DNA from: a virus
IMG/VR virus record: IMGVR_UViG_3300042321_002876
Location: 1 to 38,516 of that record
Strand: one strand, 5' to 3'
Length of the DNA: 38,516 nucleotides
In this document: piece by piece, positions 840-14,267 of the stretch
Layout of the letters: the number at the start of each line of letters is the position of its first letter
Position numbering within the stretch: the stretch's first letter is position 1
Program-made: the position numbers and the translations under genes
The notes under the pieces: model-generated
Told to the model about the DNA's origin: nothing
The model's input: the letters and a program-made list of their open reading frames with translations, nothing else
Database searches by the model: none

Positions 840-3325
<2,486 letters not shown>

Positions 3326-3346
3326 ATATTATAGGAGAATAAATAA

Positions 3347-3667
3347 ATGCCAGAAACATATGCAAGTTATGGAACAAATCTTACAAGTACAAATGAAACA
3401 ACAGTTGTTACAAGTGTAACTGGTACTTCAATAGTAAGTGCAATACACGTTTCCAATGTTGATGCATCAAATAACTCATCAGTTACAATTAAATTGTATA
3501 AAGGGGCAACTGGTTATACTATAGTAAATTCTGCTGCTGTACCAATTCAATCTACTTATCAGGCATTAGATGCACCAATACCATTAACTACCGGAGATAC
3601 TATCAAAGTAACCGCTGGACACGCAAACAGGTTAAATGTAATAGTTTCTGTTTTAGAAATAACATAA
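3347..3667 (+). CDS. Small beta-rich virion protein
   Basis: 106 residues, rich in Thr, Ser, Val and Ile, with alternating polar and hydrophobic residues that predict a beta-sandwich. No cysteine and no membrane segment. A good ribosome binding site (AGGAG, 3333-3337) precedes the ATG. It resembles in style the 127-residue protein at 14283, which sits just before the polyglycine adhesins. Both look like small fibre- or baseplate-associated proteins common in large environmental phages. No specific function can be assigned. Confidence 0.7.
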   Translation: MPETYASYGTNLTSTNETTVVTSVTGTSIVSAIHVSNVDASNNSSVTIKLYKGATGYTIVNSAAVPIQSTYQALDAPIPLTTGDTIKVTAGHANRLNVIVSVLEIT

Positions 3668-3675
3668 GGATAAAT

Positions 3676-3975
3676 ATGGCTTTAAGACAAATCATACAAC
3701 ACCCAACAGGCACATATTCGGAATATTGGAAAGTCCGTTCAATAACAATCAATCATACAGAAAAAACAGGTACGATTATTGTAGATGGATATGTATCTCA
3801 GCAAGCAAGAAATGACAACAAAGTGCCCCTAGATGAAAGAACAATACCGATATCGGAATATGATACAAGATTTTCTCCCTCCGTTATCGATTCTTTAAAT
3901 ATGAATGAGGTAAAGGCATCCTATTTGTTTTTAAAAGATACAAATTCAGAATTTTTAAATGCGGAAGATACATAA
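3676..3975 (+). CDS. Hypothetical phage structural protein, 99 aa
   Basis: Starts nine bases after the previous stop with an AGGA-type binding site (3667-3670). The protein begins MALRQIIQHPTGTYSEYWKV and has alternating beta-type segments (RSITINHTEKTGTIIVDGYV), then a charged second half. Its position among fibre genes suggests a structural or assembly role. No catalytic motif is visible. The next ATG, three bases after the stop, opens the degenerate fibre gene at 3979. Confidence 0.65.
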   Translation: MALRQIIQHPTGTYSEYWKVRSITINHTEKTGTIIVDGYVSQQARNDNKVPLDERTIPISEYDTRFSPSVIDSLNMNEVKASYLFLKDTNSEFLNAEDT

Positions 3976-3978
3976 AAT

Positions 3979-4237
3979 ATGCCAAGTAATTTTCCAAATA
4001 ATCCATCAGTAGGAACCACCCATACTATTGATAATATAACTTGGAAGTGAAATGGTGTGTCTTGGATTGCTGCTACCGTAATCACCAATACAATTTCGTG
4101 TGGTGATTAGTTTACCAACAACAGTTTTTTCAAACGGAACTGCTGTAACAAGTACAGGAAATCTGTCACAGATAGCTATTGAATCACAATTTTCATTAAT
4201 CTATCAATATATTTTAATAATAAAATTTATAATTTGA
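3979..4237 (+). pseudogene. Remnant of a third fibre head-module gene
   Basis: The ATG at 3979 opens MPSNFPNNPSVGTTHTIDNI, the same head module seen at 840 and 5368. At 4048-4050 a TGA sits exactly where the paralogues have the second Trp of the W-x-W-[DN]-G pattern. After that stop the frame reads NGVSWIAATVITNTIS, as the module should, then stops again at 4108. From about 4097 the next frame continues with plausible fibre-like sequence (VVISLPTTVFSNGTAVTSTG) until it degrades close to 4214. There the end of a minus-strand glycosyltransferase gene overlaps. One nonsense change plus a frame change near 4095 point to decay. TGA is a normal stop in this phage (many ATGA overlaps), so recoding is unlikely. 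A sequencing error cannot be excluded for either lesion. Confidence 0.7.
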
Positions 4238-5305
4238 TTCGACTCTTCTTCGATGTTCTATTGGTAAATAATCTTCAGTCAGCAACTTGATGCATGCTTC
4301 TTTTCCTACTTCTGTTTGTTTTGCATAATATGCTGTAGCTGCAATTTCATCATAAATTTTCCATAAGTAATCTTCTTTGTGAATAAACAGTTTTTCATAA
4401 TTTATTTTTTTGTTTTTTCCCATCGATGCAAACATGTACGCTGATTTTGGTTTTCCTTTTTCTCTTAAAAATGAAGACGCCAGAACAAGATGTTCAACTC
4501 TTTCCTGGTCTACTTCGTGTGCATTTATGCATGCTTCTATAATCAATGATTCTGATTTTTTTAATTTTATTCTGCATTTTATCACTTTAAGCCAAGAATA
4601 AAAAACTTCATCTTCCCATCCTTTCATGTCTATTCTCTTTAAATATTCTTTTTCTGCAGCTTCAATCATGTTGGCATCAAAGAGTGATTGTGCAGCATAA
4701 AATTGATTTCTTGGATTGTTTGGATTTTTTTCAAGTTCTTTTTTTAATATAAGATAATCGCTGAAGTACTTGCTTCTTGCGTCCTCGTGCTGTTTTGTTC
4801 TATTGCCGTCTCTGCTTGAGACCCATATGTAGTTCCCAGTTATTTTTCCTATTTTGCAGTTACCTTCTGCGTATGGGTATTCGTGTATTGGTTCTTTATA
4901 TTCCCATTTTTTATTTTTTACATTAAATATTTGTATTCTTGGATAGTTTAGTTCAGAATTTCCTACATTTACCTTATAGGCATCAAGTGATGAATCAAGG
5001 CACGAAAGGTCTATTTCTCCTTGTATCCAATCATCTGCATCGATCATGATGACCCATTCTGTTTTGTCATAACATAGCTGAAGGGCGGCAGTCCTGTTAT
5101 GGCCAAAATTTACCCACTGATGATCGTGTATTTCTCCTAAAATTCTATAATTATTAAAAAAGTTTGTTATTTTATTTTTTGTTCCGTCTGTGGATCCGGT
5201 ATCACATATTATAAAATAGTCAATCTTTTTGTATATAGACTGTAAACACCTTTCTATGATAGCTTCTTCGTTTTTGACTATCATGCATAGCGTAATTTTA
5301 TTCAT
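4214..5305 (-). CDS. GT2 family glycosyltransferase with helical C-terminal region
   Basis: 363 residues, the only convincing minus-strand gene in the window. Residues 4-93 show the GT-A fold signature of family 2: CMIVKNEEAIIERCLQSI, the nucleotide-binding CDTGSTDGT (Asp35 to Thr42), and the metal-binding DADD at residues 89-92. From about residue 170 onward the protein is helical and Lys/Glu-rich with TPR-like pairs (NPRNQFYAAQSLFDANMIEAA). This combination is known in phage and giant-virus proteins. It probably transfers a sugar from a nucleotide sugar to a host glycan or a virion protein; the acceptor cannot be read from sequence. Orientation and its place beside a broken fibre gene suggest a later insertion (moron-like). 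It must have its own promoter, probably within 5306-5367. Confidence 0.88.
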   Translation of the reverse strand: MNKITLCMIVKNEEAIIERCLQSIYKKIDYFIICDTGSTDGTKNKITNFFNNYRILGEIHDHQWVNFGHNRTAALQLCYDKTEWVIMIDADDWIQGEIDLSCLDSSLDAYKVNVGNSELNYPRIQIFNVKNKKWEYKEPIHEYPYAEGNCKIGKITGNYIWVSSRDGNRTKQHEDARSKYFSDYLILKKELEKNPNNPRNQFYAAQSLFDANMIEAAEKEYLKRIDMKGWEDEVFYSWLKVIKCRIKLKKSESLIIEACINAHEVDQERVEHLVLASSFLREKGKPKSAYMFASMGKNKKINYEKLFIHKEDYLWKIYDEIAATAYYAKQTEVGKEACIKLLTEDYLPIEHRRRVESNYKFYY

Positions 5306-5354
5306 AACAAATTTATCGTTTATATTTTAAAAATAGGAATATTTGCTAATATTT

Positions 5355-5362
5355 AATAAATA
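5355..5362 (+). promoter_or_regulatory. Possible variant late promoter box AATAAATA
   Basis: The 62-base gap between the divergent genes at 5305 (minus) and 5368 (plus) is very AT-rich and must contain promoter activity for at least the minus-strand gene. AATAAATA at 5355-5362 differs by one base from the T4 late box TATAAATA. With T4-like spacing, transcription would begin on the A of the ATG at 5368, giving a leaderless message. This fits the absence of any Shine-Dalgarno sequence there. AT-rich sequence makes chance matches common, so this is weak. Confidence 0.22.
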
Positions 5363-5367
5363 TCTGT

Positions 5368-6375
5368 ATGCCAATTATAAATTTTCCAACATCTCCATAC
5401 TATGGACAATCATATAGTTTCAACGGCAGAACTTGGTCTTGGAATGGATATGCCTGGGATGTTTCTACTTCCACTTCTGGTGGTGGTAGTGGTACTGCCG
5501 TTCAGTATCTTGACCAGTTAGCGGATGTTTCAATTTATGATCCTTATGTTGGCCAAGCTTTGATTTTCAATGGCAATGAATGGGTAAATGATTATGTTGA
5601 TATTCCTAACTCAGTTTGGGAAAATGTAGAAACAACAACTGCTACAGATATTAATGGCGTTCCTGCAGGCACTTCATTAATTGGATTAACTCCAATACAG
5701 GTTTTGGAAGAAATATTATATGCATATCAGCCAGTAACATTGAGTGCTTTCTCAATAGGCTTGTCTTCTACTTTTGAGATAGGTCAAACTGCTGGAAGTG
5801 GTTCTGCGACTGCAACATGGTCAGCAACAAATAGTTCTAATATTGTTACAAACGGCATGGGGATTTCTTACTCTGGTGTATCTTCTGGGGCTCTTGTTTC
5901 TGGTCAACCGTATTCTTCAGGATCTGGATTATCAATTGTGCATCCAGCATATACAAGTTCGACAGTTGGCGCCACTCTTACATTCACGTTAAGTGCGGAT
6001 CAGCAACAAGGTGCAGATGCTACTCGTACAACATCATCTAGATGGTGGAGTAGAATGCATTATGGTAAGTCTACAAATGCGTCTTTAACTACATTTATGG
6101 GAGGAACACTCTCTGGCGGTAGTAATAATCTTATATCGAGTGCGTCTTTTCCGTCTTCTTCTTTAAGTTTAGGAGCAGTAAATGGTTATGTATATATATT
6201 TGTCCATAATAACTATACAATTTCTTCTTTTGCAATAGGTGCTACAGACGTTTCAGGAACATTCTCTATGGTTGGAACTCAAAGCATTACAAATACTTAT
6301 GCAGCAACTGCTACATACAAAGTTTATAGGTCTACAAATCAATTAAATGGAGATTTTACGCTAAGCGTATCATAA
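5368..6375 (+). CDS. Fibre or baseplate protein with FP..P/W-x-WNG head module
   Basis: 335 residues. Residues 1-32 (MPIINFPTSPYYGQSYSFNG then RTWSWNGYAWDVS) repeat the head module of the collagen-like fibre at 840. A Gly/Ser linker follows, then LADVSIYDPYVGQALIFNG and NEWVND, a pattern frequent in neck, tail and fibre proteins of cyanophage-like myoviruses. The remainder is beta-rich, Ser/Thr-rich sequence with no enzyme motif. The ATG has no clear Shine-Dalgarno sequence, which is unusual here. It lies divergently from the glycosyltransferase and starts a block of plus-strand fibre genes. Structural role is likely; exact location in the virion is not known. Confidence 0.75.
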   Translation: MPIINFPTSPYYGQSYSFNGRTWSWNGYAWDVSTSTSGGGSGTAVQYLDQLADVSIYDPYVGQALIFNGNEWVNDYVDIPNSVWENVETTTATDINGVPAGTSLIGLTPIQVLEEILYAYQPVTLSAFSIGLSSTFEIGQTAGSGSATATWSATNSSNIVTNGMGISYSGVSSGALVSGQPYSSGSGLSIVHPAYTSSTVGATLTFTLSADQQQGADATRTTSSRWWSRMHYGKSTNASLTTFMGGTLSGGSNNLISSASFPSSSLSLGAVNGYVYIFVHNNYTISSFAIGATDVSGTFSMVGTQSITNTYAATATYKVYRSTNQLNGDFTLSVS

Positions 6376-6379
6376 TCAT

Positions 6380-6781
6380 ATGCCAATATCAGGAACCGTC
6401 ACAGTCTCTGGAATAGTTGCGCCTACATCTACTGGCGACACATATCCGGTAACAGACCCTAAATACGGACTTGGTGGATTAAGGTCTATTACTGGAGGAG
6501 CAGGAGATGCTCTTACCGACATCCCCGCTGCTCGCAGAGAAGAAGGAATGTTAGTATACGTGCAAAGCACAAGTAAATATTATAAATTAGTTGGTGGAAC
6601 AGCTGATATTAACTGGACAGAATTTGTCTTGCTTCCAGTTGATGTTCATGGAAACGTTTATATTACTGGTAATCTTATTGTAAGTGGATATATTGAGACC
6701 GACACTGGAATACAAGGTAATCCATATGATGCTCCAGAATATTTTCATGGAATTGATCTTGATGGAGGAAGTTATTCTTAA
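6380..6781 (+). CDS. Small tail structural protein
   Basis: 133 residues, starting five bases after the previous stop. It contains VTDPKYGLGGLRSITGG, ARREEGMLVYVQSTSKYYKL and then NWTEF. This is a recurrent module in phage fibre and tail proteins, often found as a domain near fibre repeats. The C-terminal third (DVHGNVYITGNLIVSGYIET) resembles the 'GNL.V.G' repeat of the long fibre that follows, so it may be a companion or connector of that fibre. No catalytic residues are apparent. Confidence 0.7.
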   Translation: MPISGTVTVSGIVAPTSTGDTYPVTDPKYGLGGLRSITGGAGDALTDIPAARREEGMLVYVQSTSKYYKLVGGTADINWTEFVLLPVDVHGNVYITGNLIVSGYIETDTGIQGNPYDAPEYFHGIDLDGGSYS

Positions 6782-6827
6782 ATAGGATAATATTTAAACA
6801 TACAGAAATTTAAATGGAGTTTGAACG

Positions 6828-9800
6828 ATGGCAACTAATCCAACAATTCAATTTAAGAGAAAAACAAGCGCAGCTGGAGCGCCTGCTTCACTGTCTGCTG
6901 GCGAACCAGCATTTAATACAGTTTCAAACTTCCTATATGTAGGTAATGGTTCTGCGGTTAAGTGGGTTGGTGCCGAGATATTAGATCATACTACAACTGC
7001 ATTTACAAGCACAACAAGCCTTGCTACTCGTAAGGCAATTGGTGACATATTTGCTCCATTAAGAAGTCCAGTTTTTGAAGGGACTATTACTGGAAGCGCT
7101 CTTTCTTTGTCTAGTACTGTTAGTACTTTAATTGTAGGATCTACCAACGACGGTGGTGTATTAAGTTTTGGTCCAGTTGGTGCTGCAGTTCAAATTTATG
7201 GATCTCTTACGACAGGTAACCCTCTTTCTTCTATTAAGGTTGCAAATGTAACTTCTCCAGGATTTTCCACATTTCCAGCTCTTGTTTTGACTGGCATTCA
7301 AGACTTGGGGGCCACGCTTGGAAGTGATGCGCAGATAACCATATCTGGCTCTGCTGCAGGAATTAGTAAGCCTACTTTAGTTAACATATCTGCTAATGAA
7401 ACACTTTTGTCTGGAGATTTAGTAGTAAAGGGCGGAGATATATTCACTACTGCAACTACATTTAATTTTGTAACAAATACTGCATCAACAATAAATATAG
7501 GGACTACTTCTGGGAGTACAATAGTTATAGGAAATTCTGCTGGTACTGCTACAATAAGAAATGCAGCTACTGCAATTAATGGAACTCTTAGTGTCACAGG
7601 TGATGCAACATTTGTTGGAGACATTGCTGTTAGAGGTGGAGACATCACGCTGCGAGAAAAAGGCGGAGGCACTGATGATATTACAATAGCAGCTCCTTCT
7701 GCAGTGAGTACAGGAGGAGTGACGTATACGTTGCCTGGTGCGTATCCAGGATCTTCTGGATATGTACTTCAGGCTGACACATCTGGAAACATGTCTTGGG
7801 CAGCACCATCTTCTTCTGCTAATGTTGGAGTAACTGCAACAAGCGCTAGTCAAAACTACAAGATGTTATTCACTGACATTAATGCGACAAATACATCTGC
7901 TGCATTGTTTATTGATACCACTTCTGGAATAATATTTAATCCATCAACAGATGAATTAATTGTGAATGGCCCACTTACTACAAATGGATCACTCTCAGTC
8001 ACGGGTAACGCTACTTTTGCAGGTAGTATTCTTGCTAACGGTGGCACTATCACAAGTAGCGCTACTACATTCAATTTACTCAACACAACAGTCACTAATG
8101 CAAACGTACTCGATGCTGCTACAACATTATCTATTGGAAATAACGTAAATGGTACGCAAAATGTAAACATTGCTAGCGCTTCAGGTAGTGCAATAAAAAC
8201 TTTAAATATTGGTGGATCATGGGCTTCTTCTGGCCTTGGAGAAACAAATATTTTTATAGGTCAAGCAGGTAATGGAAGCACATGGTTACAGACTTCTAAC
8301 TTAGGAATTCTTTCTTCAACAATCACTTCTAATCAGTCTACTTTAAGTTTATTTAACACTACTGTAACCAATGCAAACGTTTTAGGTGCTGCTAACACAA
8401 TTATATTAGGTGGTACAGGTGGCACTGCTACAATTCGTAATGCTGCTACAAATCTCAACGGTACACTAACTGTAACTGGTGTCTCTGTGCATCAAGGTGC
8501 TGGACACTTTAATAGTACACTTACTGTTACTGGTGCATCTTCTCTTATTGGAGACGTTACTGCAACAGGTGACATAGCAGTTAACGGTGGAGACATTACA
8601 AGTACTGCCACTACATTTAATCTTCTTAATACAACTGTTACTGGTCTTAACGTAGCTAGTGCTGCTGGCACAGTAAACGTTGGAACAAGTGCCACGGCGG
8701 TTAGAATTGGAGCAAATGGCACTGGTGGTTTAATACTTGGTAATTCTACTGTTTCTGGTCTTTCTACCACTCAGAATCTTTATAATACAACAGCGACTAC
8801 TATTAACTTTGCTGGAGCTGCAACATCTCTTGTCATGGGAGCTCTCACTGGAAGTACAAATGTTCGTAACACTTTTACAGTTGGTCAGGGTGGAGGCGTT
8901 GGTGGCACAATAAATACGAACTCCGTCAGTGGAACAAATCCTCTTACTATTACGCCAACTGGAAATTTAAATCTTACAGCAGTTCCTTTTGCAAATGTGG
9001 GCGGAAATTCTCCACAGTTAACAATTCAAGGCATTGATCAGGCAGCAGGTTTATCTATTTTCTCAGGTGGAAACCTATACTTGGGTGCTAAGACGGATGA
9101 TACTCTTGATGTTACTCCAGTAGACCTTACATTTGGATGGACCACTGCAAATATATTAACAACTACCTCAGGAACAACAGCAAACGTATTTAACACAAAT
9201 GCTACAACTGTAAACGTAGGTGGCGCTGCTACTTCTCTTGTTATGGGTGCTGCATCCGGTACGACTACTATAAGAAATGCTGCTACAAGGTTGAATGGTA
9301 CTCTTACCGTTACAGGTGCTACAGTAATTCAGGGAGCATTGTCTACTAACGGTGCTCTTACTGTCACTGGTGCATCAAATTTACAGGGCCTAGTAACAAT
9401 TTCTGACAATCTTACAGTGAATGGTAATGCTGAAATCAAAGGTACTACAATTAGTAGTTCTAGTGCTACTTTCAATCTTCTCAACACAACAGTTACCAAC
9501 GCCAACGTACTTGGTGCTGCTAACACTATTATACTAGGTGGCACAGGTGGCACTGCTACTATTCGTAACGCTGGTACCAATCTCAATGGTACTCTTACTG
9601 TTACTGGTGTCTCTGTTCACCAGGGTGCTGGTTCATTTAATAGTACTCTTACCGTCACTGGTGCCACAACACTAAATAATAATCTCACAGTGACAGGTGC
9701 ATCTACTTTGCAAGGCAACGTAAACATGAACGGTACCCTCACCGTTACTGGTGTCTCTGTTCACCAGGGTGCTGGTTCATTTAATAGTACTCTTACTGTT

Positions 9801-10757
9801 ACTGGTGCCACAACACTAAATAACAATCTAACCGTTACAGGCGCATCTACGTTGCAAGGCAACGTAAACATGAACGGCAATCTTACTGTGACTGGTGCTA
9901 CAACGTTGCAGGGTGCAATGTCTGTTTCCACTACTATTTCCAGTGGTTCTACTACATTTAACTTATTAAATACAACTGTAACTGGCCTAAATATAGGTGG
10001 TGCTGCTAATACAGTTAACATAGGTTCTACTACTGCTATTATTAATCTTGGCACTGGGACAACAGGTGCAACAGTAAATATTAAAGGAAATCTTGTAGTA
10101 GAAGGTTCTACTACAACGGTAAATTCTACCACTGTTACCATAGACGACTTGAATATAGTGCTTGCTGATGGTCAGACTACTGCGGCAGGAGTTGATACCG
10201 GCGGCATTAATCTTGGCACCTCTGGTATAAACTGGACGTATGTGCACGGTGGTGGTACTTTTGCAAACTGGACATCAACTACTAACGTTGATTTAACTAC
10301 CGGATTTGCATATAAGATCGGCAATCAATCAGTGCTTTCTTCTTCAACTCTTGGGGCATCTGTTGTCAACTCTTCGCTAACTCAAGTTGGAACAATTGCC
10401 ACTGGTACTTGGCGTGGTTCTGTGATAGCTGCAAACTGGGGTGGTACTGGGTTTGGCACGTACACTGTTGGTCAAGTTCTTTATGCAGCTACAACAACAA
10501 GCTTGGCACAATTGTCCGCTGCTGCAACTCCAGGCTCTTTACTTGCCAGTAATGGTGCAGGTGTAGCCCCAGAATATAAATTTATATCTCTAAGTAATGG
10601 TTCAGTTACTTCTTCTTCTGGAACATTAACTTTAAGTATACAAAATGCTGCAGCAGACGGCTCAACAAAAGGACTTGCGTCGTTTAATTCAACTCAATTT
10701 GATGATTCATCTGGTTTGATTACACTCGATACAATTGACGGCGGAACTTACGCATAA
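6828..10757 (+). CDS. Long repeat tail fibre protein 1
   Basis: 1309 residues. The N terminus (MATNPTIQFKRKTSAAGAPA ... LSAGEPAFNTVSNFLYVGNG) is a typical phage fibre N-terminal module. The body is built from beta-repeat units such as TFNLLNTTVTNANVLGAANT, TATIRNAATNLNGTLTVTG and VSVHQGAG, varied and repeated many times. Such runs form elongated trimeric beta-structures. Near the C terminus lies a second known fibre module: GNLVVEGSTTTVNSTTVTID, then VGTIATGTWRGSVI and GGTGFGTYTVGQVLYA. The Shine-Dalgarno ATGGAG (6811-6816) fixes the ATG at 6828. The gene is a paralogue of the one at 11295 and shares identical DNA blocks with it. Role: host-contacting or side fibre, inferred. Confidence 0.87.
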   Translation: MATNPTIQFKRKTSAAGAPASLSAGEPAFNTVSNFLYVGNGSAVKWVGAEILDHTTTAFTSTTSLATRKAIGDIFAPLRSPVFEGTITGSALSLSSTVSTLIVGSTNDGGVLSFGPVGAAVQIYGSLTTGNPLSSIKVANVTSPGFSTFPALVLTGIQDLGATLGSDAQITISGSAAGISKPTLVNISANETLLSGDLVVKGGDIFTTATTFNFVTNTASTINIGTTSGSTIVIGNSAGTATIRNAATAINGTLSVTGDATFVGDIAVRGGDITLREKGGGTDDITIAAPSAVSTGGVTYTLPGAYPGSSGYVLQADTSGNMSWAAPSSSANVGVTATSASQNYKMLFTDINATNTSAALFIDTTSGIIFNPSTDELIVNGPLTTNGSLSVTGNATFAGSILANGGTITSSATTFNLLNTTVTNANVLDAATTLSIGNNVNGTQNVNIASASGSAIKTLNIGGSWASSGLGETNIFIGQAGNGSTWLQTSNLGILSSTITSNQSTLSLFNTTVTNANVLGAANTIILGGTGGTATIRNAATNLNGTLTVTGVSVHQGAGHFNSTLTVTGASSLIGDVTATGDIAVNGGDITSTATTFNLLNTTVTGLNVASAAGTVNVGTSATAVRIGANGTGGLILGNSTVSGLSTTQNLYNTTATTINFAGAATSLVMGALTGSTNVRNTFTVGQGGGVGGTINTNSVSGTNPLTITPTGNLNLTAVPFANVGGNSPQLTIQGIDQAAGLSIFSGGNLYLGAKTDDTLDVTPVDLTFGWTTANILTTTSGTTANVFNTNATTVNVGGAATSLVMGAASGTTTIRNAATRLNGTLTVTGATVIQGALSTNGALTVTGASNLQGLVTISDNLTVNGNAEIKGTTISSSSATFNLLNTTVTNANVLGAANTIILGGTGGTATIRNAGTNLNGTLTVTGVSVHQGAGSFNSTLTVTGATTLNNNLTVTGASTLQGNVNMNGTLTVTGVSVHQGAGSFNSTLTVTGATTLNNNLTVTGASTLQGNVNMNGNLTVTGATTLQGAMSVSTTISSGSTTFNLLNTTVTGLNIGGAANTVNIGSTTAIINLGTGTTGATVNIKGNLVVEGSTTTVNSTTVTIDDLNIVLADGQTTAAGVDTGGINLGTSGINWTYVHGGGTFANWTSTTNVDLTTGFAYKIGNQSVLSSSTLGASVVNSSLTQVGTIATGTWRGSVIAANWGGTGFGTYTVGQVLYAATTTSLAQLSAAATPGSLLASNGAGVAPEYKFISLSNGSVTSSSGTLTLSIQNAAADGSTKGLASFNSTQFDDSSGLITLDTIDGGTYA
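9588..9875 (+). repeat. Tandem 144-bp repeat in fibre gene 1
   Basis: Two adjacent 144-base copies (9588-9731 and 9732-9875) encode the same 48-residue block, beginning GTLTVTGVSVHQGAGSFNST and ending LQGNVNMN. The copies differ mainly at synonymous positions. This is a recent in-frame duplication that lengthened the fibre. Confidence 0.9.
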
Positions 10758-11294: not shown

Positions 11295-14267
11295 ATGGCA
11301 ACAAATCCAACTATTAAACCAAGACGAGGGACATCTGCACCTGGTGCTGGAGCTATTACTCAAAACGAATTAGCAGTTGACACAACCAATAAGCGTATAT
11401 ACATAGGCGCAGCTGATGGCTCTGGTACATTAATTGGGTCTGCTCCTGGCGGTTCAAGCACGCAGGTTCAATTCAACGATGGAGGAAACCTAGGTGGTAG
11501 CTCTGGTCTTATATTTAGTAAAACTTCTTTTGATTTAACTATTGGCGGAGATCTCGCAGTAAGTGGTGGAGATATTACTACTACCGTTACTACATTTAAT
11601 TTACTCAACACAACTGTTACTAACGCCAACGTGCTTGGTGCTGCTGATACTATTGTGATTGGTTCTGCTAATAATTCTACTACAATTAGAAATGCAATAA
11701 CTGCAATCAACGGAGCATTAACTGTTACAGGTAATGGAACATTTGTAGCAAATATTCTTGCTAATGGTGGTACAATCACTTCTACTGCCACTACATTTAA
11801 CTTATTAAATACAACGGTTACTGGTCTCAATATAGGCGGTGCTGCAAATACAGTTATATTAGGTGGCGCAGGCGGCACTGCTACAATTCGTAATGCTGGT
11901 ACAAGTCTCAACGGCACCCTCACCGTTACTGGTGTCTCTGTGCATCAGGGTGCTGGTTCATTTAATAGTACTCTTACTGTTACTGGTGCCACAACACTAA
12001 ATAACAATCTAACCGTTACAGGCGCATCTACGTTGCAAGGCAACGTCAATATGAACGGCACTCTCACTGTGACTGGTGCTACAACGTTGCAGGGTGCAAT
12101 GTCTGTTTCCACTACTATTTCCAGTGGTTCTACTACGTTTAACTTGCTAAATACCACAGTTACGAATGCAAACGTATTTGGTGCTGCTAACACAGTTGTT
12201 ATAGGTGGTACTGGTGGAACTGCAACTGTGAGAAATGCTGGAACAAACATAAACGGTACTCTCACTGTTACTGGCGCAACAACTTTACAAGGTGCCTCTA
12301 CGTTGCAAGGCAACGTCAATATGAACGGCACTCTTACTGTTACTGGTGTATCTAATTTTGTTGGAGTTTTGACTGCTAACACCATTACCACAACCAGTTT
12401 CCTTGCTGCCACAGTTGGAGGAGATGAAGGCGGAGAAATATTATTAGGAAAAGCGGTAACGAACACCACTTTAAGTGGAACTGGCGTTACTATTGATGTT
12501 TACCAGAATAGACTAAGATTCTTTGAACAGGGTGGCGCTGCTAGGGGTTATTACCTTGATATTTCTAATGGAGGGGGAGGTGCCTCCACTCAAATAGGAG
12601 GCTCCGCAACTGCTGCTGGTTCAAATACTCAAGTTCAATATAATAATGGTGGCGCATTTGCTGGATCTGGAAACTTTACATTTGATGGTTCTGGAGTAAA
12701 TGTAAATGGCATTATTTCTTCAGGCTTAGGCATCTCTACAAGTGCTACTACATTTAATATAGCCACCAATACTGCATCTACTATTAACATAGGTACTACA
12801 TCTGGAAGTGCAATAAATATAGGCAATGCTGGCGGAACTACTACAATAAGGAATGCTGGTACAAACATAAACGGGACTCTGACCGTTACTGGTGTTTCAG
12901 TACATCAAGGTGCGGGTGCTTTTAATAGTACACTTTCTGTTACTGGTGCATCTACTCTTATTGGTGACGTTACTGCAGGCGGCGACATTGCAGTGAACGG
13001 TGGAGATATTACAAGTACTGCTACCACATTCAACTTACTTAATGCCACCGTTACCAATGCAAACGTACTTGGAGCTGCTAACACGGTAGTTCTAGGTGGC
13101 ACAGGTGGTACGACGACAATTAGAAACGCTGGAACAAATATAAATGGTACTCTTACTGTTACTGGTGTCTCAGTGCATCAAGGTGCTGGTGCTTTTAATA
13201 GTACACTTTCTGTTACTGGCGTCACAACATTGCAAGGTGCTTCTACACTACAGGGTGCAGTAAATATGAACAGCACTCTCACCGTTACTGGTGTTTCAGT
13301 GCATCAAGGTGCTGGTGCTTTTAACAGTACTCTTTCAGTTACTGGCACATCTACTCTTATTGGTGACGTTACTGCAAGCGGAGATATTGCAGTAAACGGT
13401 GGAGACATTACTTCCACTGCAACTACGTTTAATTTACTGAACGCTACCGTTACTGGTCTCAATATAGGTGGTGCTGCTAATAGAGTTGTATTAGGTAATA
13501 CAGGTGGTACCGCTACAATTAGAAATGCTGGTACAAACATAAATGGTACTTTAACCGTAACTGGAGCTACTACTCTGCAAAGTACTTTAGATATTGGTGG
13601 CAATGCAATATCGTCTGGATCAACTACCTTTTATCTTTTAGATACTACTGTTACCAACTTGAGCATTGGAGGTTCTGCCACTTACGTTTCTATTGGTGCT
13701 GCTTTTTTGCCCGGGCAAACAATTATTCAAAACGAAACATTTAGTGTTAAGAGTAGTAATATTAGTCTTTTTAATGATTCTGTTACAGGTGTCTATGCCA
13801 GCAGCAAAGCAGGAACTTTTTGGACATTTACGGTGGGAGAGGGAAACGTATTCCTTATAGAGCCAAGCGCTTTTGCATATGACAAGCCAGATTTGGCATT
13901 TGGAGGTATGACAAGTACATTCATTGGTGACTATAGTGGCAATGGAAATGGCACTTTGATAGGAGTTTTAGATGGTACCCAAACTATTAATTTCACTGGC
14001 AACTTAGCAGGCACAAGCGGTTCTCTTGGTATTTATAGTCATCTTATTCTTGGTACAAATTCATATGAGCTTAGGTTCTACGATGCTGATGGCTCTCATT
14101 TCGTTGGATTTAAAGCTCCATCTACTGTGACCGCTGATAATACATGGGTACTTCCTGCGCAAGACGGTTCTGCTGGTCAATTGTTAACTACAGATGGAGC
14201 CGATAACTTAACTTGGACATCTCCACCAGCATTAGATTTGTTCTTATTCTCACAAGGTATTATTTAA
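11295..14267 (+). CDS. Long repeat tail fibre protein 2
   Basis: 990 residues, paralogue of the fibre at 6828. The N terminus (MATNPTIKPRRGTSAPGAGA then ITQNELAVDTTNKRIYIG) is a common phage fibre start. The body reuses the same units (TTVTNANVLGAA, TIRNAGTNINGTLTVTG, VSVHQGAG). The C-terminal third differs from fibre 1. It is a globular-looking region that includes LRFYDADGSHFVGFKAP and TWVLPAQDGSAGQLL, a pattern seen at fibre tips. The Shine-Dalgarno is weak, so coupling to the preceding small gene (stop nine bases upstream) is likely. The two fibres probably share their mounting but have different tips, giving two receptor specificities or a proximal and distal half; the sequence does not decide which. 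Confidence 0.86.
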   Translation: MATNPTIKPRRGTSAPGAGAITQNELAVDTTNKRIYIGAADGSGTLIGSAPGGSSTQVQFNDGGNLGGSSGLIFSKTSFDLTIGGDLAVSGGDITTTVTTFNLLNTTVTNANVLGAADTIVIGSANNSTTIRNAITAINGALTVTGNGTFVANILANGGTITSTATTFNLLNTTVTGLNIGGAANTVILGGAGGTATIRNAGTSLNGTLTVTGVSVHQGAGSFNSTLTVTGATTLNNNLTVTGASTLQGNVNMNGTLTVTGATTLQGAMSVSTTISSGSTTFNLLNTTVTNANVFGAANTVVIGGTGGTATVRNAGTNINGTLTVTGATTLQGASTLQGNVNMNGTLTVTGVSNFVGVLTANTITTTSFLAATVGGDEGGEILLGKAVTNTTLSGTGVTIDVYQNRLRFFEQGGAARGYYLDISNGGGGASTQIGGSATAAGSNTQVQYNNGGAFAGSGNFTFDGSGVNVNGIISSGLGISTSATTFNIATNTASTINIGTTSGSAINIGNAGGTTTIRNAGTNINGTLTVTGVSVHQGAGAFNSTLSVTGASTLIGDVTAGGDIAVNGGDITSTATTFNLLNATVTNANVLGAANTVVLGGTGGTTTIRNAGTNINGTLTVTGVSVHQGAGAFNSTLSVTGVTTLQGASTLQGAVNMNSTLTVTGVSVHQGAGAFNSTLSVTGTSTLIGDVTASGDIAVNGGDITSTATTFNLLNATVTGLNIGGAANRVVLGNTGGTATIRNAGTNINGTLTVTGATTLQSTLDIGGNAISSGSTTFYLLDTTVTNLSIGGSATYVSIGAAFLPGQTIIQNETFSVKSSNISLFNDSVTGVYASSKAGTFWTFTVGEGNVFLIEPSAFAYDKPDLAFGGMTSTFIGDYSGNGNGTLIGVLDGTQTINFTGNLAGTSGSLGIYSHLILGTNSYELRFYDADGSHFVGFKAPSTVTADNTWVLPAQDGSAGQLLTTDGADNLTWTSPPALDLFLFSQGII
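11946..12046 (+). repeat. 101-bp block identical to fibre gene 1
   Basis: Positions 11946-12046 are identical to 9765-9865 in the first fibre gene, 2181 bases upstream. A further block of about 70 identical bases follows shortly after (ending near 9955 in fibre 1). Identity at synonymous sites in two otherwise diverged genes indicates recent gene conversion or duplication, and offers a substrate for deletion of the intervening small genes. Confidence 0.9.

Follow-up and report, generated by a model that had tools for sequence, protein, structure and literature searches.

A probable recombination scar in the tail-fibre cluster of a large tailed phage, with a broken fibre head module beside an inverted glycosyltransferase gene

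The host recognition cluster of pelagimyophages and cyanomyophages is a hypervariable fibre island situated between the VrlC and gp14 genes, and its glycosyltransferases (GTs), mostly GT8, are linked to the host O-chain in the sections of that study drawn on here (PMC7029224). For GTs of aquatic phages, the roles proposed are to modify the O-chain or the cell wall of the host or to protect the phage genome (PMC7029224, PMC10202952), and in mycobacteriophages phage GTs have been linked to sugars on the phages' own structural proteins, with capsid and tail tube being glycosylated (PMC11256854, PMC12619734). Among bacterial enzymes, GmaR of Listeria, a flagellin GlcNAc transferase, has an N-terminal GT domain followed by TPR and, as described in the cited portion, further antirepressor domains (PMC9638930). 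SgtA of Clostridioides difficile (358 aa), in which GT-A is combined with TPR, attaches GlcNAc to Thr within the Gly-Pro-Thr collagen region of the spore protein BclA3, and its gene adjoins the collagen-like BclA3 gene (PMC7157674). Finally, SunS and ThuS, which are titled glycocin S-glycosyltransferases in the PDB, are peptide S-glycosyltransferases that combine GT-A with a helical repeat part. Among the papers listed by searches of the open-licence PMC literature, none had a title on glycosylation of collagen-like phage fibres.

The window, the whole stretch of DNA that was analysed, is the 38.5-kb virus record IMGVR_UViG_3300042321_002876 (38,516 nucleotides). Since a 147-kb contig occurs among its relatives, the phage is taken to be a large tailed one, of which the window is a fragment; what lies to the left, where the usual GT site would be, is missing from it, and upstream of the fibre locus the relatives carry genes that by eye resemble T4-type replication genes. 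The fibre locus spans window genes 840-10757, and short N-terminal head modules recur through it. Like the clusters of PMC7029224, it is a variable structural region that mixes tail-fibre and GT genes; fibre and GT genes here form a non-syntenic region that differs between relatives, and we assign the locus to the host recognition clusters by this content and variability. Reshuffling of fibre and GT genes is a known form of turnover at such loci and is commonplace in the host-recognition regions of phages. Unlike the clusters in the cited sections of PMC7029224, however, the window appears to record one turnover event, in the form of a broken stub beside an inverted, clipped GT gene. We propose, with a probability of roughly 0.7, that recombination has left a scar at positions 3976-5321, within the host-recognition (tail-fibre) cluster of this large tailed phage, a reading drawn from one genotype. 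The segment would thus be a snapshot of turnover in a host-recognition locus, in which a fibre gene was lost, its head stub was left behind and a flipped enzyme gene of the same locus type came to occupy the gap. The features concerned are:

3676-3975, plus strand: 99-aa gene (phrog_5084) left of the remnant, the anchor of the slot in 32 relative loci
3979-4110, plus strand: fibre head-module remnant, first frame (head profile, codon log-odds, translation), with a TGA at 4048-4050 and the next in-frame stop at 4108-4110
4100-4207, plus strand: continuation in the +1 frame, without a found relative, with coding-like codon use (codon log-odds) that fades after about 4160
4208-4216, no strand: probable junction, with the GT stop codon (4214-4216, minus strand) at the end of the remnant; 13 of 13 close GT kin run 35-65 residues further
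4214-5305, minus strand: GT2 glycosyltransferase, 363 aa (PF00535, phrog_13126), modelled with a GT-A domain at about residues 1-165 and TPR-like helices at 168-362
5306-5367, no strand: 62-base spacer (14.5% G+C) that separates the divergent GT and fibre genes, with homology to two relatives (L124 and L125) from 5322
5368-6375, plus strand: intact gene for a 335-aa head-module fibre, the next in the cluster, with counterparts of 89-90% identity in L124/L125

With a profile made from 12 intact heads, the remnant was recognised over 3979-4086 (24 bits, E 9e-7) despite its internal stop, in keeping with the earlier note, which had described a third fibre head module broken at this place. The TGA at 4048-4050, which the earlier note had put at an expected Trp codon, falls where intact heads have W, Y or F. 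The frame change proposed to follow it was also recovered: with the 26 remaining window genes as the training set, codon log-odds point to the 3979 frame until about 4075 and, between about 4100 and 4160, to the +1 frame, which places the change between about 4075 and about 4100. The codon score of 4100-4207, 7.6 bits, was reached by none of 1820 wrong-frame stretches of equal length, and 25% of 910 true-frame stretches score at or below it. Relatives of this body piece were found neither in the loci nor in PHROGs, and phage records gave a single match at E 10. Recognisable sequence had been said to run out at about 4210; the coding-like signal does continue past 4100, but because it fades from about 4160 and the 4100-4207 piece has no found relative, 4210 is only an upper bound. 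The profile thus recognises the N-terminal module of the remnant, but an open frame into the body is absent, given the stop, the frame change and the loss of the 3' part.

The slot to the right of the 99-aa gene varies in content among the 32 loci that encode a relative of this gene. One of the 32 is a sibling contig, IMGVR_UViG_3300042298_003758 (18,821 nt), which equals the window over its full length save for 10 differences at 2981-3107, near the contig's own end. In the other 31, whose downstream flanks run from 1.0 to 8 kb, an uninterrupted head module lies at most 160 nt downstream in 13 and none is found in 18; 12 of the 13 heads belong to complete ORFs of 126-982 codons, and the ORF of the remaining one (L016) leaves the contig end. 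A GT gene occupies the slot in none of the 31. The comparison called for in the earlier note therefore did turn up relatives with an intact fibre gene in the slot and no GT2 gene. In addition, the heads nearest the remnant by pairwise score are slot genes (L032/L033 first, L007 second and L020 fourth). In L014/L015 an orthologue of the 5368 gene sits directly in the slot, which means that the broken head was perhaps a surplus one.

On the right, L124 and L125 match about 78% of the bases of the window from 5322 rightwards, that is, from 17 bases past the GT start codon, and in both a different virion-type gene ends at about window position 5322. The 3' part of the broken fibre gene was not visible between the GT gene and 5368, and transposon-like ends, terminal repeats or a target duplication were not clearly present. 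A scan for promoters and terminators gave counts that did not exceed those of shuffles, or hardly so (15 vs 17.2 and 2 vs 1.5).

The gene between these flanks is a GT2 gene on the minus strand that ends at 4214, as the earlier note had read it. Its product matches PF00535 over residues 6-97 with 46.4 bits against a curated cut-off of 23.3 (E 5e-12) and phrog_13126 with E 2e-27, and keeps 54 of the 56 columns that are invariant in 13 homologues; the Asp-x-Asp motif (D89 A90 D91) is invariant in 13 sequences. That it is the sole gene on the opposite strand holds in a narrower form: all other minus-strand ORFs of at least 100 aa are mostly overlapped by plus-strand ORFs, but at or across two other gaps between plus-strand genes there are three shorter minus-strand ORFs (65-76 aa). 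Codon score was discarded as support for further minus-strand genes, as it does not discriminate, many shadow ORFs scoring above zero. The GT gene has a G+C content of 31.9% vs 40.0%, and all 26 plus-strand genes, themselves the training set, exceed it in codon score.

We searched for the GT in 19 records, comprising the sibling, 16 of the 31 other relatives and the L124 and L125 records. It is held by the sibling and by seven of the 18 others, in all seven cases elsewhere and co-oriented with fibre genes, in one (G006) some 73 kb away. In the three GT neighbourhoods inspected, the GT follows genes that by eye are of replication type in L150 and L152 and of sugar-nucleotide type in L151. In the tree, the window GT joins the GT of L022 with support of 100/99, those of L014/L015 stand beside this pair (93/86), and the branch of the window GT is 1.18 long; a GT nearer by identity (48%, G010) is absent from the tree. 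The GT that the earlier note had taken for cargo is therefore not evidently foreign, since its closest relatives identified here are GTs that belong to the same phage group.

The window GT lacks a C-terminal tail of 35-65 residues that is present in 13 of the 13 close kin examined, a comparison from which L040, L042 and L045 were left out. These tails are mostly Lys-rich, often with a terminal Lys/Arg run (L022:139-1419, L015:1729-2925, L038, L041 and others). Three outgroup GTs also lack the tail, so its absence from the window GT could be old. A residual tail past the GT stop was sought and dismissed: the best match (E 0.015) is in frame with the 3676 gene, the others have E of at least 0.15, and we judged them all to be chance. 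Given that the tail is absent here and present in all 13 close kin examined, the fibre remnant and the GT were probably both truncated at the 3' end, at a single junction.

The simplest account that we infer from this arrangement is an illegitimate recombination in which the greater part of the fibre gene was deleted and a flipped GT copy took its place. A non-homologous joining would have replaced the rest of the head-module fibre gene; the replacement would be a copy from the tail-locus GT family of the same phage group; and the GT would have been flipped in the move, whether by relocation or duplication, and clipped of its C-terminal tail. A GT from outside, or one that evolves fast, may fit the low G+C content, the low codon score and the long branch as well.

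These same features, together with a slot free of the GT in 31 of 31 other loci, are what would be expected if a foreign cargo gene had simply been inserted into an intact fibre gene whose sequence then decayed. This alternative survives best, but it is unlikely: no fibre remnant is visible on the far side of the GT, where homology to L124/L125 begins after only 17 bases, the nearest GT kin come from the same phage group, and clear terminal repeats or a target duplication are missing. The cargo insertion into a fibre locus suggested by the earlier note thus gains from the relatives with GT-free slots and uninterrupted heads, but replacement or deletion fits better than simple insertion because no 3' part of the target is found beyond the GT. 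It is very improbable that the head stub is alive, whether as a short product that is kept, as a recoded gene or as a recombination seed for the swapping of fibre genes. Head modules do recur through the locus, and in L003 and L016 the counterpart of the 3676 gene is followed by a bare head stub of 6-8 codons (by eye); however, none of the 41 other head matches in the window and the 32 relative loci (above 40 bits, 31 distinct) is interrupted, a count that omits the sibling's copy of the remnant and in which strongly decayed heads would go undetected. Repeats show only ordinary head similarity, the TGA is an ordinary stop, and the window contains no tRNA gene; an alternative code in which TGA encodes a residue was rejected on the latter ground and because nine of the 26 genes end in TGA. 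Nor did an exact pattern scan of viral contigs match any further genotype of the remnant, the sibling alone being returned, and the same stop, which if kept in relatives would have spoken against decay, was seen in none but this near-identical contig. A sequencing or assembly error is an unlikely cause of the break, and a fibre gene that is in truth whole or otherwise arranged is the least probable alternative of all, since, although the window represents a single population and the sibling possibly comes from the same site or reads, that contig carries the same stop, frame and junctions, and two separate lesions and the 3' loss would all have to be errors.

Within the proposed scar, the GT is probably still an enzyme, as its frame is open, conserved columns are kept and the predicted fold is confident (pLDDT 92.5). 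The model has a GT-A domain followed by TPR-like helices at 168-362, the architecture of GmaR and SgtA, and TPR proteins are among the fold matches to its helical part. Among the matches listed, the best solved folds are SunS/ThuS (Z 21.6-22.8 over 266-274 residues), with which it shares GT-A plus a helical repeat part, and the next family is WrtF (Z 18.1 over 160 residues); GmaR is absent among the fold matches listed (the best 50 in each list). The best profile matches are to GmaR (E 1e-23 over the GT domain) and SunS (E 3e-13). Against TIGR04195, the SunS family, it scores 35.1 bits, well under the curated NCBIfam cut-off of 350 for membership, yet it may work like SunS.

The fold match to SunS/ThuS, the profile matches to GmaR and SunS and the precedent of SgtA lead us to suggest, tentatively, that the most likely activity of the GT is sugar transfer onto Ser/Thr residues in a fibre protein, which the TPR-like part would hold. 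The candidate acceptor is:

840-2441, plus strand: head-module fibre gene with a collagen-like region (PF01391, E 1e-74), proposed as GT acceptor

The longest unbroken tract of this fibre comprises 162 Gly-X-Y triplets, with 90% Thr at Y. The likeness to SgtA is drawn by description: the GT shares a locus with a collagen-like gene, as SgtA adjoins that of BclA3, but its gene is inverted and some 1.8 kb from the 840 gene, and the SgtA acceptor is a bacterial spore protein (PMC7157674, in the part cited). GmaR differs in having flagellin as a named acceptor (PMC9638930). Likewise by description, the parallel with mycobacteriophages concerns capsid and tail tube there and, as proposed, fibres here. 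If the GT does act on fibres, it would offer an example, open to assay, of a phage enzyme that glycosylates collagen-like fibres, and its likely protein acceptor is the part worth assaying.

Gene neighbourhoods of the GT kin bear on this proposal. Seven of the 11 closest GT loci, as ranked by the GT search, have 4 kb on both sides; five of these seven have a Gly-X-Thr tract downstream (two of the five have identical GTs) and none has one upstream, and the corresponding counts for distant GTs are 0 and 0 of 38. A Thr-rich collagen tract occurs in only two of the 47 distant GT loci with a 4-kb downstream flank. In three loci (L038:7242-, L040:7245- and L041:7254-), a gene for a head-module fibre with a Gly-X-Thr tract begins on the final base of the GT stop codon, an overlap that suggests one transcription unit. 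It is doubtful, though conceivable by analogy, that the window GT and its close kin serve specifically as fibre glycosyltransferases, placing a sugar on Thr of Gly-X-Thr collagen-like tail fibres, and that this phage group varies fibre and sugar coat together by shuffling one locus. An invariable position of the GT beside a Thr-rich collagen tract was ruled out by several loci, which also speak against the acceptor proposal: in L015, L020, L022 and L151, the tract nearest downstream of the GT has 0-4% Thr at Y, with Thr-rich tracts further downstream in the first three and absent in L151; L037 has 25-30% Thr in its first two tracts; and L039 and L044 have no tract in the stretch examined. Also against the proposal, Thr-rich tracts are present in relatives in which no GT was found, e.g., L011 and L025.

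Several further observations concern the fibre locus at large. The 1309-aa protein encoded at 6828-10757 has a Major tropism determinant N-terminal domain (PF18454, E 3e-6) and has repeated segments in common with the protein encoded at 11295-14267. The gene at 2426-3325 encodes a headless body behind the collagen-like gene, and the same type of body is headed in several relatives (e.g., L020:6631-7656), another sign of module swapping. The bare head starts mentioned above (L003:7131- and L016:8332-, by eye) run into unrelated DNA and are possible scars of other lost fibre genes. Finally, the plus-strand gap at 633-839 is possibly another stub plus a small gene: bases 670-840 (171 nt) recur unchanged at L016:6437-6607 and with 93% identity in L020, each copy immediately preceding a head-module gene, and the first 40 bases bear a weak likeness (80%, E 0.017) to the start of an L018 gene that by eye looks like PAAR.
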